Under the pieces are notes generated by a model that searched no databases, had not been told where the DNA came from, and saw only the letters and a program-made list of their open reading frames with translations. A stretch of DNA of 64,000 nucleotides from contig NADL03000005.1 of NCBI GenBank assembly GCA_002205965.3, positions 496,001-560,000 on the forward strand, in the 5' to 3' direction. This stretch comes from Kappaphycus alvarezii. Taxonomy: Eukaryota; Rhodophyta; Florideophyceae; Gigartinales; Solieriaceae. Below, piece by piece: positions 3,821-39,871 of this stretch. Position numbers and translations under genes: made by a program. Numbering within the stretch: position 1 is the first letter of the stretch; every line of letters begins with the position of its first letter.

Positions 3821-5373
3821 CCACTGCCGCTCTAATTTTAAAGCACCCTTCAGAATGCAGGTGAATCAGCTATACATGTATATTTTTAAAAAGTAGTACG
3901 TGATATGCATTCAGTGCCCTCTTCAATGGTGGAAACCAAGGAAATTTTATACAGTTCGTGCAACTGTAGTGGAAAAAGTATAAAAATGTCATTTTAGGGG
4001 CAACTATAATTATAAAGCACTTCTATAAAGGAAGATGTTAGTAACCTTCCCCTGCGTCTTAATGGTTCTCGGACCCTCTAAACGTACTGCTCTCATCCAG
4101 CAAAAACTTCTGGACACAAAAATGCCCCGCGGAAAAGCCCTTACCGATATTGAGAAGTGGAAAATAATGGCACCACACTAGGAAGGAAAGCTTGATGCCC
4201 AAATTGCAAGAGAATCGAACGCAGCCGAGCCGCAGTCCAAAAATTCCTCAAAAATCCAACAGGAAGGCACAGAAAGTCTCGCACGGACCGCACCTCAAAA
4301 ATGATCGAGCAAGATAGGCGCAGTCTATTCCGAGAGGCCCGGAAAAGTGTGGACACTGCCCGTTCCTTGCAACAAAAGTGTGTACTACCGGTCTCTGTGT
4401 CGCGGACGCACGCAATTCTGGCTTAAGACCCCACATGGGCTTTTGCAAGGCACAGAAGGCTCCCCGCTAAGTCAATCTCATAAGGAAAATCGTCTGAAGT
4501 GGGCAAGAGATCATGTTACATGGAACCATGGTAAGTGGAAAAACATTTTGTTAAGCGATGAGAAAAGCTTCTGTCTGGATAGTCCCGACGGCTTTCACAC
4601 ATATCGGCATGATTTGGGTAGCAATCAGACGCTTATTAGTAGAAGGCAGAAGGGTGGTGGCGGTGAAATGTTTTGGGAGGAATATCTGGCCTCATTAAGA
4701 CGGATTTGGTTGTTTTGAATGGAAGACAAACAACAAAAACCTATTTGAATGTGATAGAGGAACACTTGCTTCCTTTTGCGTACAATTTTATGCCGTTAGA
4801 CTGGACCTATCAGCAAGACAATGCTCCCATCCATGTGAGTCAAGACTCGACGGAGGGGTTCTCGGAGAATGGAATTCGTCTAATGTACTGGCACGCGCGG
4901 TCTCTGGACCCAAATCCGATAGAGAATGTTTGGGGATGGCTAGTAGGAAAGTATACGCGAATGCAATGCAGTTTCGGTCAGTTGAATAGCTTATTAATTG
5001 TGTAAAACAATGTTGGAGTGAAATGCCCAGTTCTGTTATTCATTCTCTACTTTTCTCAATGCCAAACAGGTGTATCGAGGTGATTGAGCGTTCCGGAGGA
5101 GCTACTCATCATTGAAATGCGAATGAAGTGGCCGTGAAGTTTAAGAAGGCCCTACTCTGCTCAGTTAAGTGAAGGTGCTTTAAATTATAGTTGCCCCTAA
5201 AATGACATTTTCATACTTTTTCCACTACAGTTGCACGAACTGTATAAAATTTCCTTGGTTTCCACAGTTTAAGAGGGCGCTGAATCCATATCAGATACTA
5301 ATTTTTAAAAATATACATGTATAGCTGATACACCTGCATTAGGAGGGGTGCTTTATAATTATAGGTGGCAGTG
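3821..5373 (+). mobile_element. Tc1-like DNA transposon, long terminal inverted repeats
   Basis: The ends are imperfect inverted repeats of about 200 bp: 3821 to about 4025, and about 5165 to 5373 reversed. They share the terminal word CACTGCC and a long block containing ATACATGTATA and the GTGCAACTGTAGTGGAAAAAG segment. TA dinucleotides flank both ends (3819-3820 and 5374-5375), as expected for TA-target Tc1/mariner elements. The left end has one extra C after the TA. Total length of about 1.55 kb is normal for a Tc1 element, although inverted repeats this long are at the upper end. The single gene inside is broken, so the copy is dead. Confidence 0.85.
4122..5005 (+). pseudogene. Tc1-type transposase, DD34E, multiply broken
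   Basis: The enzyme would cut and paste the surrounding element at TA sites. The catalytic part shows the first Asp in LLSDEKSFCLD (about 4554), the second in QQDNAPIH (about 4812) and the Glu in DPNPIENVW (about 4910-4936). There are 34 residues between the second Asp and the Glu, the Tc1-subfamily spacing. An N-terminal HTH-like part with a Lys/Arg/Thr-rich linker is visible in another frame around 4206-4400. In-frame stops (near 4179 and 4302) and frameshifts near 4205, 4400 and 4690 destroy the ORF. The start was chosen at the ATG opening the recognisable N-terminus. Confidence 0.85.
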
Positions 5374-5719
5374 TACTTAGCTTAGTTTTTTTGCTTTTTT
5401 ATTTTTCTTTTTTATTTTTCGAACGTAAAGTGTATGGATCTAGTCTAAAGGTGTGAAATGTGGTATATTTCATATTTTAAAGATATTATCGGCTATGGCC
5501 CGGAATAATCTACAAGGTGACCAGTAGTACCTCTAAAACTTCCTTAAAATGCCGGCTCAAGGCCGCCAAGCAGACAAACTGCGTTGTAGATTACGGTCAT
5601 AGCAGTATTCCTCTGAGTAAGTACCGCTCGGACCTTACCATCTAACCCATCGCCCTACCGGCCACGTTACGCTCGACGTCTAGTATACTGTAGGTGCGAG
5701 GCATGTTAAAAAAATTGCT

Positions 5720-6013
5720 CGAGATAGTTCCAGCACCGCAAAAAAAGAGTTTGCTATGACAGCACAGTATCTATTACAGCTCAGCAGAATGCCGAGATAT
5801 TTTTATGATATTAATTGATTACAAAATGCTACTGTAGCCACTATTTATTTTTATGGTGGCTTCAGTTTGCACCGCACAGTACTGTAGTGTTACATACAGT
5901 GCAGAGGGGCTACAAAAGTCTATATGAGGTCTTGCGTGCCGAGTAGTGGAGCAGGTCCAAAACAAGATCCATCAGACAGAAGAATTAAACACTTATAATA
6001 AGGGGAAAGCAAC
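5720..6013 (+). repeat. Left part of an element-D-family LTR, split by hAT
   Basis: It matches the 5' LTR of the copia element starting near 59.59 kb. Shared blocks include ACAAAATGCTACTGTAGCCAC, the GTCTATA promoter word, CTTGCGTRCCGAGTAG and the ATCAGACAGAAGAA segment. Similarity stops at 6013, exactly where the hAT inverted repeat begins, and resumes at 9947. It is a solo or truncated LTR that received a DNA transposon. Confidence 0.75.
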
Positions 6014-6699
6014 TCACCATGAACACGGCTTGACTGGACCACTAAGCGGAGCGGTCAAACCAGGAAAATCTCGGTTCTGCAGAGGTCCCACGGCAAAACG
6101 TAAGGCGGTCTCTGATAGAGCTTTATATTTATCAGTTCGGTTCTTGTAAATCATCTCAAACAGAAGCGCCACATTTCACAATAACAGAAAAAATAACCGG
6201 TCCGGTCACTGCTCCGGTCTTATTCTTGGTCTCAAACCGCGGTTCAAACCACGGTTCAGTCTGAATGCATTCTGATGCTGTAAGAATTTGCAACCGCAGC
6301 ATTGCTTTGCAGAAAAACTTCCTCCAGTACAATTTTAAAGTTTTTTTAAACTTGAATTTACGGCCAAGAGCTCATAGGTACATAAGTTCTAAAAAACCTT
6401 TGAAATGAGATATCTCATCCAAACAGCGTCTGCACTTTTTACCAGTTCTGATTCATCTGATTCATTACGTTCACAGCCCAACCTTCTCACCGATCTCAAC
6501 ATGGATCGAAACAGCTCTTCGACTGGAAAAATTTGGGCACCTACTGCCGATATGCATGATTGTTTCACCGCCACAACAGTCGGGGGACGAATGTCACAAA
6601 AAAAATGCGGCCGCTGCCCAGCCACGTAAAGTGTTAACAGTGGGATATCAACGTTGCGATCTCGCGTCAGGAAGCATGGATTTCTACTTGGAAACCGCA

Positions 6700-7420
6700 A
6701 AAAAGGTTTATGGCAGACGGTCACTTCAATTGACGTTTCAGTTGCCAAAGAGAGAATACAACGAACTTTTAAACAGCGGCTCTGCCGATGGATTGTGAAA
6801 CAGAGCCTTCCCTTTTCGTCTGTAGAAGACATCTAATTTAACAGGTTTTTTGCGTTGCTGGACAGCACAATCACGGTCCCATCTCGTGTGAGAGAGAGCA
6901 GAATGGTTAATGATATGCATAAAGGGAAGAGACTGCAGCTCAAATCTTTCCTATCGCAAGTACCTGGAAAATTCTGCTTGATCACAGACGCATAGTCCTC
7001 AAAAATTTGTAAGGGGTACATTTTGATAAGCACATTGGGTCACGACTGAATGAAAGCCATATCTATAGAACTGGATTTTATTCGTTTCATTTCCCGTACA
7101 CAGGTGATGCCACATGTGCATTGCTCTATGAGGTTTTATCTTCCTGGGATCTCTGCAATATATTTCGCGCAATTACTGCAGATAATGCAAGCGAGGTTTG
7201 CAGTGGAGTGTCAAAATTACTGAATCTTCTTGGAACAGATGCCCATCAATCATCAGTATTAGAATATTTTCACGTTCGATGTCTGGCACTTGTGGTTAAT
7301 CTAGCCGTGAAATATTTCCTATTTTTGATAAGGGAGTAAATTGCGAAGATATGATCTCTATTCAGTTCTATCCGGGCTTCTGTGAGGGGGCGTGATCTGT
7401 TTGAAAAGTAAGGGTAGAGC
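6700..7420 (+). pseudogene. hAT-family transposase remnant
   Basis: Diagnostic hAT blocks occur in order but in shifting frames. An N-terminal core resembles RWIVKQSLPFSSVED (6790-6830), followed by a VPSR block (about 6880). Then comes a YTGDA-like block before 7110 and the segment with ITADNAS (about 7170, catalytic-core Asp region) and HVRCLALVVNLAVK (7270-7310). The C-terminal dimerisation region was not found. Frameshifts and stops are numerous. Family assignment rests on the DNA and HVRC-NLAV blocks, which are typical of hAT. The product is certainly inactive here. Confidence 0.75.
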
Positions 7421-24796: not shown

Positions 24797-26416
24797 CACG
24801 GGCTAAACAGCATTAACAAGGTACTCCTCAAACAATCCAGGGGACGAGACAAACGCATAGATCTAACTACTCCACAAATTCCACAGCAGGATAAGTTCGC
24901 GGAAAGGCTCAACTGCACTCGTATCTCATGCGTGGGAGCAACACTGCACACAGAAAATATGCCAATCACTGAATATTGGGCCTACTGCCTATTGGATACG
25001 GTCACCAAAACAAACGCCACCCTCTACCTACCTATCTAAGACATTCATCGACGACTGGGTAGGATTTGTCCATAATATTTTCTCTACTCCGTACCAGACC
25101 ACTTACGCTTGACCGATTCAGTATGTTCGGGGAATTCGACCACATCCCAACACTGGCTGGCAACATGGGGAAAATCTCCAAGGGCAAGATTAGTGCCTTA
25201 CCTAAGCGCTCCTGATGGAAAACATTACCTTGTCATCGACCCAACCAACGGTCAACTGCTCACGACAGGGTAACTGATTTCCGACCTTACAATCCGAACT
25301 ACGATCTCCAGTGATTGCGCTTTCACAGCATACCACCCCACGAAACAGACCACCCACGTATCAATACTCACCGTGCGATACCGTCTCAAGCACATGCCAA
25401 TAAAAATACTTATGAAGAGGAACCCACGGCAGTACGAGAAAAGTACCTCACTACACCTCCACTCAATCTAAGAGAAGCAGCACGTCGTCAGGATTTCGAC
25501 ATGTGGCGCAGTGCATACGAAAACGAAGTCGGCATGCACACACAGTTTGGCACTTTCCGCTTTATACACCGGTCATAACTGCCCAAAATTCGAAATTATA
25601 CAAACTCGTCGTCAATTTTGCCGACAATTACGACGCGCAGGATGATTTCTCGGGGCACAAATTCCGCATGAACTACCCGGACACCCACTGCGACCGGGTA
25701 AGAATTTCGATAATTCCTATTTGGCGGTCCACACCGCGGCCAGGGATAGCATGAGCCTCCTCGTATCCATTGCCATATCGTACGTCAATAATATAAACCA
25801 AATCAATCTCAAGAACGCATTTTTCTATGAATAGTACGAAGGAAACTAGCTCATTTACATTAGGACACTACCTCATTCGATGAACCTAGGGAAAACACGG
25901 ACACGGTCGCTCAAGTTGTCAAGTACATATATGGAAACCCCACAAGTAACGAGGACCTTATACACAAGCATGGATTCTTTCCTCCAAAGAAATGGCTACC
26001 GTCCTATGGTAAGTGACCGCAATTTCTACTTTCGTACGCACTGAGAACATAAAATCATCCTCGCCGTCACAATAGATGATTTTGCAGTGGCCCCCATAAA
26101 CGAGGCAATGTATAAAAAACTTCTCCGTCTAATACGCAGAAAGCACGAAGTAAAGGAACTCAGAGCAGCCACAAACATCATTGTGTGTACAATACACCAG
26201 GACCGGCAAAAGAGGCTTACATACATCTCACAACCGCGTCTGACACAGACGGTCACCAATAGCCTTCGCCTCCACAATTGAAAGCCGTTCAAAACGCCTT
26301 ACCTATCAGGGTACTTTATCTCCGCCATAAAGAACACGGAGAACGCAATGGACGCAAAGGGTTACCCATATGCTCGAATTATTGGAATGTTCAGGTATTT
26401 CGTGGAATCGACAAGA
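24797..26416 (+). pseudogene. Element A: end of integrase and reverse transcriptase
   Basis: Continues the frame cut at 17427. Integrase end: LTTPQIPQQDKFAERLN (about 24867-24918), the PQQNG-AER block of copia. RT: DFDMWRSAYENEVGMHTQF (25495-25551), NQINLKNAFF (about 25797), the catalytic box VTIDDFAV (about 26067, normally Y-V/I-D-D, here Thr in the first position) and RIIGMFRYFVESTR (26374-26415). The frame then stops at a PiggyBac-like insertion and continues at 29216. Several stops. Confidence 0.75.
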
Positions 26417-26420
26417 CTAG

Positions 26421-29211
26421 TGACCAAAGGACAAGCAATGTACTCATATGAGTACAAATCATTGTTCGAAATTACCTAGATTTTTTTAATTTAAAATTAT
26501 ACACTGGCACGCTGAATCCCTGAAAAATAACTTCCCCTAACTATAAAAGAAGCAATTTCATCCTCATTCACAACAACTGCTATGGCCTAATGGGCTTCAA
26601 GTAAAGAATGAACAAAGAAATAGTGAGTCCGACTCGCCGCGCTCCACAGGAGGGCAAAAACTTCCTTCAGGAAGGTCGACATTTCTGCGACAGCTACTTC
26701 CTCAGTTTGCCTTAGCGCGCCCACTTGAACATGAGCAGAGGGTTAATTCACTGATCACTCATAAAGGGGAATAACGCCATAGGTAAGTATGCTAATTCCG
26801 CAAGTCGAACGACGCGAATCAGAAATGTAGGCGGCTATAGTCAAGGACTCAATTTTTTTCATTTTTACTCATTCACCTACATAAAATGTAAGCTTAGACA
26901 AGTAAACATCACTATAGAGTAGTATAAAGCATCTTCTAATTATGACAGAAGTGGACATCGCGTAAGTGATTTTGAAAGCAGTTACGTCCTGTCTCTGAAT
27001 GGCATATCCAAACCTCTTTGTTCAGTTTCAGGCACTCAGAGCAGAGAAATTTGGACTTCTTGTCAGATTTGCAACTTTTGCATCTGCTTTGAAACGCCGC
27101 TTTCGTTGGGGCCCCATTGGCTCCTTTGCGCCTTTTCACTGTGGGCACCAGGTGGATTACAGTACCGCAGGCCAATGAGGGAACAGAATCCTCTGGACGT
27201 CAATATCAGATCTGCGGAGGCCAATAGCATCAAATGAATTGTCAATGAGTTGCTCAGCAAGTTTTGCATAAAAATCTTTTTGAGACATGCAATTCTTGCA
27301 CCCATTAAACCCTTGTATAGAAGCCATGAATCAACGATGAAAATTGCAAGCAAAGATGTATTAACCCTCAACGACCAACATTGACTTCGAATTTCTTCTC
27401 CAGTCCAAGATCATCTTGTCTGCATCTGTTATGCCTGTCAATCTGGAGCACGTTTGATAATATGTGCTGACAACCGCTGCAACTGGAATTTCCATTTCCA
27501 CAAGTAGCGTTTCATTACCAGCAGATCTCCAACGAGATTTTCTGATGGGCTCTGACGGAAGTGTTGTACCGGAGGTGCTGACAAAGTATCTTCTGTCTCT
27601 ATCCATCCACAGAACGGCCATCATAGAAGGGTGGCTTTCCGTCCTCGGACTTACCATACAGATATGATCTCCGCGCCTGAAAAGTTCCAGCCCTGACAAA
27701 AATGACATAGGAAACTGCCTTGTCGCATTCTTGACGACACCTGTAAACCTCAGTCCATATTCAAAAAGCGCATTTGCTGTGGCCACAGAAGCAAATGCAG
27801 AGTCTGCACAGACAAGTCGATTCGAATGAAACCAAGGCTCTGTAAGGCGAAGAACAATAGCAGTACCATGAGGGAAATTTGACTCGTAACGCCGATTACT
27901 GCTGTCAGATGCTGACAAAACAATCTCCAAATTCAATACAATGCCACTGACACCGCAGCACGCAGTCTTGATCTCACATCCGTTTTCAGGCTTACGGTCC
28001 ATGGCGACATAGTGCGGTAGTCCTTCTGACATCCAATCCCCCCATTCCGTACCAGCGTGACATGCTTTCATCCACGCAAATTCTCTCCGATGGCGAAAAA
28101 CTTGACCTCCTATGCCGTTTTATGGCCTCCACGAATCCGCTGACCAAAGACCATCTTCTGTCAGTGCTTTCAGTTTCAGTGTAGCGGGCTGAATGTAATA
28201 CATGAAACCAGTGCTTCGAAACGGTTCCTCGAAATGATTTTTCCAAAAGCCGCCAATGGAATGTATTTGGATGTAGACTGTGTACTCCAAAGTGACCTTC
28301 TGCTTGTAAACTCGAATCTGCATAGCAATATGAGAATTCCAAAAAACTTTAGAATTTCACAGCTGTTGTACGCATGTGCCCACCATTAGCGAGTTTCCGG
28401 TTTGTAAGTTCGGTAATTGTGGAAAGGTGTTCGACGGAAACATGCAAAGGAAAAAATCATACGGGGTCTTCTCATACTCGGTATGACCTTGTATGTACGT
28501 GTTCCCTGCTGGACCAATTACCTTCCATGGCCGATATGCCGTTGATCCATTCAACGGTAATACTACCTCCTGATTGGTCCAAATTTTTCCATGCACTTCT
28601 TTGCATACCCCTCCTACTCCGGCCATCCCATTGGCTTCTTCTCGAGGTTCTTCAACAGAAGGTTGACGTTCGGTAGCTCGACTCAGCAGCAGTTGTCTCC
28701 ATTTCATTGGACGTTGCGAGGCCACCTTCAGATGCTTCTCCTGGCTTGATGTTGACGAGTTTCAAGCTGACGCGCTTTGTCCTGTCCTGAATGGACCAGT
28801 CTGCGGTGACCGAAGTCTGACGTATTCCGGTAGATGTGTCAACTTCGATGCTGACCACGGTTCCGTTGACGCGCTTACTTCTCCAAAGGGAACGAATAGT
28901 CGCTTACACTCAGCCACTGACGTGACAAGGGTTGCGCGAGTGTTGACAAGGTTTCCGGGCTGTTGACGGGGTCATTTGGTTCGTCATTTTTGGTTAAATT
29001 TTCGATGTTGACAAACTTGTTGTGTGTTCGAATGAACAGTTGAGGAGTAAACTCCGAAGTTTTGCACGGTTGACTACCTAAGGGTGTTATTAGATATGGT
29101 GAAAAGCTAATGGTGTCATTATGTTAGTTTTTTGTATAAAATCTAGCCGTTAGAAATATGGACTCATATGAGTACATTTGGACTCATATGAGTACAATTG
29201 TCCTCTGGACA
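26421..29211 (-). mobile_element. PiggyBac-like DNA transposon with CTAG target duplication
   Basis: The target duplication CTAG is seen at 26417-26420 and 29212-29215. The ends are imperfect inverted repeats of about 30 bp: TGACCAAAGGACAAG at the left against TGTCCAGAGGACAAT at the right (reversed). Each is followed by the palindrome TACTCATATGAGTA; a second, one-base variant of the palindrome lies inside the right end. Excising 26421-29211 plus one CTAG fuses element A's pol in frame (ESTRL then DFAYFAY), which proves the boundaries. The transposase lies on the minus strand. Known PiggyBac elements use TTAA, so CTAG is unexpected. Confidence 0.85.
26944..28860 (-). pseudogene. PiggyBac-like transposase (DDE_Tnp_1_7 type), frameshifted
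   Basis: Minus-strand blocks follow the PiggyBac order. Near the N-terminus is YEKTPYDFFLCMFPSNTFP (about 28420-28480). The first Asp lies in ERICVDESMSRWYG (28040-28085), followed by a VAMDRKPENGCEIKTACC block; the second in LVCADSAFAS (about 27785-27815); the third in VLWMDRDRRYFVSTSG (about 27575-27620). A C-terminal cysteine finger, CKSCKSDKKSKFLCSEC followed by CFQNHL, is at 26950-27090. All three Asp codons survive. Frameshifts near 28725, 28350, 28070, 27365 and 27175 kill the gene. It would catalyse excision and insertion of the element. Confidence 0.8.
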
Positions 29212-29215
29212 CTAG

Positions 29216-29910
29216 ACTTCGCATACTTCGCGTACATACTGGCTACATACACCGCCAAACCCACAGTGAGGCACTGGAAAGCCCTCAAAAAGTGGCGCGA
29301 TATCTCAAACATACGGACACGATGGGATTGCTCAAGGGAACGGTTCCAGATTCATTCCAAGTGCAATCCGATAAGCGACTATGCCTGCCCATATATCCGT
29401 CAGTCAACTTATACATCCCTGGTTTACCACACCGGGAACCTGGTATCATGGGGCTCACGCAAGATATGCATTGTAGTCAACAGCACCTGCGAAGCAGAAT
29501 TCATCGCAGTCAGCAACATAATGCCGCACAAAAAGTGGATACAATAACTGCTTGAAGACCTCGGACAAAGAAACCACAAAACTATCCTCCGCAAGATAGA
29601 AAATCAAGCGGACATTGACGTCGCGAGGACCAGCCCCACCACCGAGCATTCTAAGTACATCGAAGTCAAGTACTTCCACATACAACAGGCTGTGGATTAT
29701 TGTACCATAGAGCTATCACACACATCATCCGCAATGTTACAGGCTGATATCCTGACAACGCCGCTATCACCAGACCAGTTTCTGAGACATCGCGCAAATC
29801 TATGCTTAACGCAGGTAATCCAGTCCGTGCCCACGGCTGTAGAGATATCATCATCTCATTCTCACATATGTACTGGATTGCACCTGAGACGGAGGATTCA
29901 TAGAAACTGA
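29216..29910 (+). pseudogene. Element A RNase H domain
   Basis: Continuation of A's pol. ILATYTAKPTVRHWKALKK (29235-29291) is the copia connection block, followed in the next frame by VARYLKHTDTMGLLKGTV. WGSRKICIVVNSTCEAEF (29449-29502) matches the copia W-x-S-x-K-Q...STxEAE block of RNase H. One frameshift near 29290 and a stop near 29546. The 3' LTR begins 29914; a weak purine-rich tract (GAGACGGAGG, 29886-29895) precedes it. Confidence 0.75.
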
Positions 29911-37985: not shown

Positions 37986-38304
37986 TTTCAGCTAGCTTGA
38001 TCAAAGCCTATTGGCTAACCCAGATATTGCAATTTCAATATCCAATCATTGTTGACATTTACAAATGAACGGAAAATCTGAACAAAAGTCATTCACGTCG
38101 TTGACCTACTCGCCTATGAGAGCAAAATTCTTGCATGTCATTCAATGACAAATTGATGCCACGGCATTTGTCTAATATCTCTGCCCAACGGCAGGGTCGT
38201 CCCTTCAATTCATTACTTCCTGTGCCATCACGATCATCCCCCCGACAATCAACAATTCCTCCATCACGTCTCTTCCCAACACTTGCACCAACCACCAAAC
38301 CACC
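37986..38304. other. Upstream region of enolase
   Basis: About 320 bp between copy E1 and the enolase ATG. C-rich with CACC and CATC words near the start; no TATA box obvious. The promoter must lie here or inside the truncated element. Confidence 0.4.

Positions 38305-39871
<1,567 letters not shown>

Follow-up and report, generated by a model that had tools for sequence, protein, structure and literature searches.

The 2,791 bp element at positions 26421-29211 of the window (the whole stretch of 64,000 nucleotides analysed here) is best explained, with a probability of about 70%, as a dead copy of an autonomous piggyBac-type cut-and-paste transposon belonging to a lineage that integrates at CTAG.

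Anatomy of the window element and its insertion site

The element is bordered by CTAG on each side, and its limits coincide exactly with those drawn by the first-pass annotation, which had described a piggyBac-like transposon with a CTAG target duplication instead of TTAA. The parts of the element and its immediate surroundings are the following.

25910-26416, plus strand: left-hand part of the interrupted copia pol remnant (15 further matches elsewhere in the genome; the frame runs on across the insertion)
26417-26420, no strand: left CTAG, target site or duplication (from the sequence; of 36 other copies whose two ends could be read, 32 are CTAG/CTAG)
26421-29211, minus strand: transposon, 2,791 bp, with its transposase on the minus strand (ends common to the fetched copies)
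26421-26435, plus strand: terminal inverted repeat TGACCAAAGGACAAG, family form TGTCCAAAGGACAAG (sequence and copy comparison)
26440-26455, no strand: 16-bp subterminal palindrome GTACTCATATGAGTAC (sequence)
26936-27199, minus strand: C-terminal cysteine-rich finger piece (sequence and alignment)
26939-28987, minus strand: transposase remnant with frameshifts (upper limit set by eye at the ATG matching the one where the intact 687-aa relatives begin)
27361-28119, minus strand: longest open transposase piece, 252 aa, containing the second Asp block (DDE_Tnp_1_7, E 4.4e-15)
29160-29175, no strand: subterminal near-palindrome GGACTCATATGAGTAC (sequence)
29180-29195, no strand: subterminal near-palindrome GGACTCATATGAGTAC (sequence)
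29197-29211, minus strand: terminal inverted repeat TGTCCAGAGGACAAT (sequence and copy comparison)
29212-29215, no strand: right CTAG, target site or duplication (sequence)
29216-29547, plus strand: right-hand part of the interrupted copia pol remnant (frame read-through and paralogue comparison)

The TGACC end is peculiar to the window copy, the comparison of copies giving TGTCC in its relatives. The window copy, L012, L022, L052 and L053 all have subterminal 16-bp palindromes or near-palindromes at either end; the window copy has one on the left and two on the right, L012 two at each end, and L022 two on the left and one on the right. Judged from the palindromic repeat that piggyBac itself has, as presented in the structural account of that transposon (PMC7351741), the left palindrome of the window copy is a possible binding site for the cysteine-rich domain. 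The three catalytic Asp blocks and the C-terminal cysteine finger reported by the first-pass annotation are indeed all there, but they are scattered across several frames, which means that the transposase of the window copy is broken.

The insertion interrupts a copia pol frame. When the two flanks are joined with one CTAG, frame 0 is open without a stop and reads ...RYFVESTRLDFAYFAYILATYTAKP... (RYFVESTRL followed by DFAYFAYILATYTAKP), in full agreement with the restoration of this frame noted previously. The left flank matches 15 other places in the genome, nine of which extend to the insertion point; all eight of those that were fetched have exactly four bases there and lack the element, and thus represent empty sites, of the kind that the first-pass annotation had proposed to align. 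In each of these eight diverged copia paralogues the four bases differ from CTAG.

CTAG targets across the family and its sister families

Searching the genome (336 Mb, 884 contigs) with the element gave 40 scored loci among 615 candidates, the window included, so that the copy number of this family (family A) is at least 40. All 40 loci, the window's own among them, were fetched with their flanks; 38 are near full length in one piece and two are in pieces, and two of the 40 (L032 and L045) have common flanks and are therefore not independent. The ends and the CTAG are common to the 38 copies matching nearly full length, and with 40 scored loci behind it the pattern seen in the window is not due to chance. 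Using a tolerant end pattern, the two ends could be read in 36 other copies, of which 32 have CTAG/CTAG flanks, or 33 of 37 when the window copy is added by eye. The remaining four have GTAG/CTAG, GAAG/CTAG, CTAG/GTAG and CTAG/CTAA, each deviating on one side only, and TTAA flanks occur in none of the 36. The count leaves aside the window copy itself (L009), which a single-base deletion puts outside the pattern and which shows CTAG/CTAG on visual inspection, as well as L020 and L040, where the family left end was not found, and L048, whose right end was unrecognised. Neighbouring elements share one CTAG in L010, L019, L022, L023 and L046. The L020 locus (C607:611101-616572) contains a pair of related elements, about 80% alike, that lie directly against each other in opposite orientations.

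A genome search with the Pfam profile PF13843 returned at least 119 matches, 116 of the 951 candidates having been scored; 16 chosen loci were fetched. Family B (L052, L053, L063) has ends of the form CTAG followed by TGTCTATYSGACCA. Family C (L058, L062) carries the same transposase type, with CTAG at one L062 end and CTAT at one L058 end. The genome also contains short elements whose ends are of B type and which have GTCCTCATATGAGGAC palindromes (L067), and among the first 100 of the 1,117 B-type CTAG places many pairs of facing ends lie about 380-540 bp apart; the short non-autonomous derivatives were probably moved by the same enzymes. One short B-type element (L071) is inserted at CTAG within a family A copy; among 32 other A copies, the corresponding site has a single CTAG in nine (as in CACTATATCTAGTCGCACCC) and mostly CTAA in the remainder.

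Exact ends with the TA intact were also counted genome-wide. Family A gives 201 CTAG, 22 outer-deviant and 13 inner-deviant ends; family B with its short derivatives gives 1,117 CTAG, 73 outer-deviant and 48 inner-deviant ends, 1,238 in total. For A and B pooled, the target is CTAG at 1,318 of 1,474 exact ends (TA intact, at most one deviant base), and not TTAA. The reversed-pattern control was zero in all six exact-end searches. For B ends with both bases deviant there were six matches, one of them TTAA; since the reversed control of that pattern gave 17, these doubly deviant matches may be chance. The CTAG preference suspected from the window copy extends to the family and to at least one sister family.

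Length of the target-site duplication

A CTAG flank is in itself no proof of a CTAG duplication, because a duplication of TA inside an obligatory CTAG looks identical. Taking into account that CTAG is a palindrome and fits either length, only non-palindromic targets can discriminate. The same non-palindromic tetramer is found on both sides in four loci, namely CTAC (L067), ATAG (L068), CTAA (L071) and ATAG (L102), and GTAG is found at both of L069 and L070, whose ends lie 8.4 kb apart and putatively belong to one element. When pairs are defined as facing ends within 12 kb, one outer-deviant and the other inner-deviant, the end lists contain four, all concordant (L067, L068, L069 with L070, and L071), against at most 1.35 expected (p 0.049). 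Mates were additionally sought for 20 of the 45 inner-deviant B ends without a pair in the lists. Thirteen were found: eight CTAG, one concordant ATAG (L102), and CAAG, CTAA, CCAA and GTAC. The GTAC mate, in L107, deviates at the outer base, and its tetramers are discordant. Overall, five of the six outer/inner deviant pairs are concordant, compared with about one third expected from independent change.

Most deviations from CTAG are nevertheless one-sided, and they fall more often on the outer base than on the inner (95 versus 61, p 0.008, or p 0.012 once two tandem duplicates are removed). Two adjacent elements have one deviant tetramer (C509, L024) in common, which was entered in both lists. 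A pure 4-bp duplication does not predict the excess at the outer base, which is consequently a counter-signal to the 4-bp reading; sequence-context mutation is one idea for its cause. The excess falls on T and G.

A further family of the same genome bears on the question of length. Family D (L050, L057) combines the classical DYN..MGGVD..D motif with ends TCCCCTCGTCTGTA. Its seven full copies (L050 1285-3735, L057, one each on C450, C658 and C675, and two on C744) have TA on both sides in six cases and a matching tetramer in none; C precedes TA in five of the seven and G follows it in two. The duplication in family D is apparently the 2-bp TA only, which is unusual within the DDE_Tnp_1_7 protein family, and its occurrence in this genome makes the length question for the CTAG elements a real one. 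Separately, TCCCCTCGTCTGTA recurs at a spacing of about 12.3 kb on contigs C54, C274 and C576, with no flanking TA in L091 and L092; an Rfam search of the window, L091 and L092 added nothing, the latter two being without a match. For family E, likewise of DDE_Tnp_1_7 type (L054 1270-3766 and L056 1298-3880, two copies seen), a reading of TTAA as the duplication was rejected, as the TTAA lies within the inverted repeat TATCCCTTAATTCCC. The bases outside the repeat resemble a TA duplication, with TA/TA in L056 and CA/TA in L054.

Collectively, these data allow the alternatives concerning the target to be weighed. That the window copy is an exception, either a TTAA element with mutated flanks or a chance CTAG, is next to impossible: nothing in its support was found, and it is ruled out by the CTAG counts in both the family and the sister-family ends, TTAA having appeared once, in the pattern for which the control exceeded the matches. 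The case that would have spoken for it, other copies flanked by TTAA, was not found among the readable copies. A more serious contender is that only TA (2 bp) is duplicated within an obligatory C-TA-G, so that the elements would start with GTGTCC and end with GGACAC. The excess of outer deviations, the several copies that are outer-deviant on one side alone and the TA-only behaviour of family D are all in its favour, but it has to contend with the concordant tetramers, and the end lists, paired over distances of up to 12 kb, contain no element that deviates at the outer base on both sides. Moreover, the piggyBac-type cleavage described in the accounts available (PMC7351741, PMC3408717) has a 4-nt stagger. 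A TA-only duplication is thus considered unlikely, and a 4-bp duplication is favoured. The CTAG duplication originally proposed is supported as to the target and favoured by most of the informative pairs, while the outer-base excess and the one discordant pair speak against it.

Transposase relationships and target choice

Two family A copies, L020 and L040, retain an open frame of 687 aa. The proteins P0001 and P0002 match PF13843 (DDE_Tnp_1_7) over positions 1-349 of 349, with E values of 1.3e-43 and 3.2e-43. In a comparison of the L020 protein with the PDB at E up to 10, the sole match is piggyBat (9c0f, E 8e-4) and T. ni piggyBac is unmatched; the family D protein matches T. ni piggyBac at 1.4e-20. 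The equivalents of D268, D346 and D447 are all found, as the CxDES, xD(S/T) and (I/V)DRH blocks align with 6x67 and 9c0f. A C-terminal CxxC...CxxC...C...H is present in those rows of families A and B and of L118 that reach that far, in a variant Cys/His arrangement. Comparing the two intact A copies gives a dN/dS ratio of about 0.28; for A against B, where synonymous sites are saturated, it is 0.21. These values point to past selection for function.

Homologues were also found on two contigs from other sources. L066, at 40% identity, lies on an IMG/VR contig that is probably a piece of a eukaryotic chromosome. Its left end, CTAG followed by TGTCTATCC, is the sole recognisable one; a right end was looked for and not found, and scans of the viral contigs for the L066 end returned the same contig only. 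At positions 5134-7029 of this 'viral' contig, a Plavaka transposase stands next to the CTAG-type transposase. L118 (1-2607), at 44% identity, has an open frame of 869 aa on a short contig of 68% GC from a Rhodobacteraceae MAG, likely a eukaryotic contaminant, with neither an element end nor any CTAG on the contig. A genome contig search with alignment A1 and a search of phage records added nothing. In the tree, a branch supported at 100/100 separates the twelve rows of families A, B and C, L066 and L118 from families D and E, piggyBac and piggyBat. This tree is unrooted, contains two known piggyBac rows, both partial, and drew a long-branch warning from the program. The phylogeny suggested with the first-pass annotation thus yields a CTAG clade set apart from both solved piggyBac transposases.

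T. ni piggyBac (6x67/6x68) shares with the CTAG elements the DDE_Tnp_1_7 domain with three Asp, a cysteine-rich domain at the C terminus, inverted repeats accompanied by subterminal palindromes, and a four-base palindromic target with a central TA. It differs in its TTAA target and CC ends, as against CTAG and TGTCC ends here; N440, which makes a base contact to the target-hairpin A, is Tyr in the CTAG clade, G444-G445 are not conserved, and the segment between the first Asp and the KP motif looks about eight residues longer here by a count made by eye on the printed sequences. In piggyBat of Myotis lucifugus, the only PDB match, the catalytic blocks follow in the same order. However, piggyBat has DYNKHMKGVD where YYQTCSQID stands here, and its TTAA target is replaced by CTAG. 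PiggyMac of Paramecium is described (PMC3408717) as making a staggered four-base cut around a conserved TA without requiring TTAA, which is under-represented; unlike the mobile element considered here, with its fixed ends and strict CTAG, it is a domesticated excisase acting on IESs. Prokaryotic IS1380, considered here by its description, is said to be distantly related to piggyBac and to make 4-bp duplications, but also to have CC...GG ends (PMC10045372).

It is on these points that the assignment to piggyBac has to be qualified. The superfamily rule, as worded in the sources cited, is a terminal CC(C/T)...GG motif (PMC2872659, PMC10045372), whereas the ends found here are TGTCC and TGTCTAT. 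That the clade is a separate superfamily sharing the broad DDE_Tnp_1_7 domain, a view compatible with the mechanism preferred here, is suggested by the long, fully supported branch, the lack of TTAA, ends in TGTC instead of CC, the change of the GGVD motif to (S/A)(Q/S)(I/V)D with N440 replaced, and the unmatched T. ni piggyBac in the PDB. It is nonetheless improbable in view of the full-length PF13843 match at 1e-43, the three Asp blocks with the C-terminal cysteine finger, the subterminal palindromes and the four-base target with central TA. The original identification stands, then, as to the DDE_Tnp_1_7 type and falls short in the TTAA and CC...GG hallmarks; given those two failed DNA hallmarks and the long branch, 'piggyBac-like sister lineage' is a safer name than 'piggyBac'. 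The transposase and anatomy work like piggyBac, and the element is classified as a sister lineage or a variant of piggyBac-like type rather than as piggyBac in the canonical sense.

The preferred reading, a piggyBac-type transposon integrating at CTAG, can be set against the contacts reported for the solved piggyBac complex (PMC7351741). There, N440 touches an A of the TTAA hairpin and Y439 shares the pocket occupied by T-3; G444-G445 join a pair of helices extending to the minor groove at the end of the transposon; and an omega loop organises the unpaired target, a T0-A3 hydrogen bond being held to enforce TTAA. In all 12 rows of the CTAG clade the corresponding block is YY-x-(T/P)-C-(S/A)-(Q/S)-(I/V)-D, so that Y439 is kept, N440 has become Tyr and both Gly are lost; Y-N is retained in piggyBac, piggyBat, family D and L054. 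Likewise, CTAG compared with TTAA keeps the central TA (T-3, A-2) and exchanges the outer T-4/A-1 for C/G. The clade-specific changes at N440 and G444-G445 are candidate residues for target choice in what would be cut-and-paste transposition of piggyBac type through an adjusted target pocket, and excision would presumably be seamless, through hairpins of the target sequence. The evolutionary account, in which a eukaryotic piggyBac-type lineage (this genome and at least one other source) switched from TTAA to CTAG while keeping the central TA and a 4-bp duplication and replacing N440, G444-G445 and the omega loop, the hairpin and transposon-end contacts of piggyBac, is evenly poised.

No report of a CTAG piggyBac was found among the titles and abstract beginnings listed in the literature searches, Repbase and subscription journals aside. 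The strict TTAA targeting of piggyBac is explained, in the part of the structural work concerned with it, by a T-A contact said to be satisfied by no other base (PMC7351741). The present findings suggest that a target rule held nearly fixed can change in nature. A large natural CTAG clade would be a counter-example with its own enzymes, pointing to residues that possibly set target choice, and would supply a transposon with another four-base address; if the reading is true, the lineage provides an example, found in nature, of a C/G equivalent to the T0-A3 contact underlying TTAA specificity, and target length, too, varies inside one protein family, as in the TA-only family D of the same genome. 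For annotation, the use of TTAA alone would overlook CTAG families, and the internal TTAA of family E could be misread automatically as a TTAA duplication. Elsewhere in the window, a hint at an algal source comes from positions 38176-39708, which hold pieces of an enolase gene whose N-terminal extension resembles an organelle leader.
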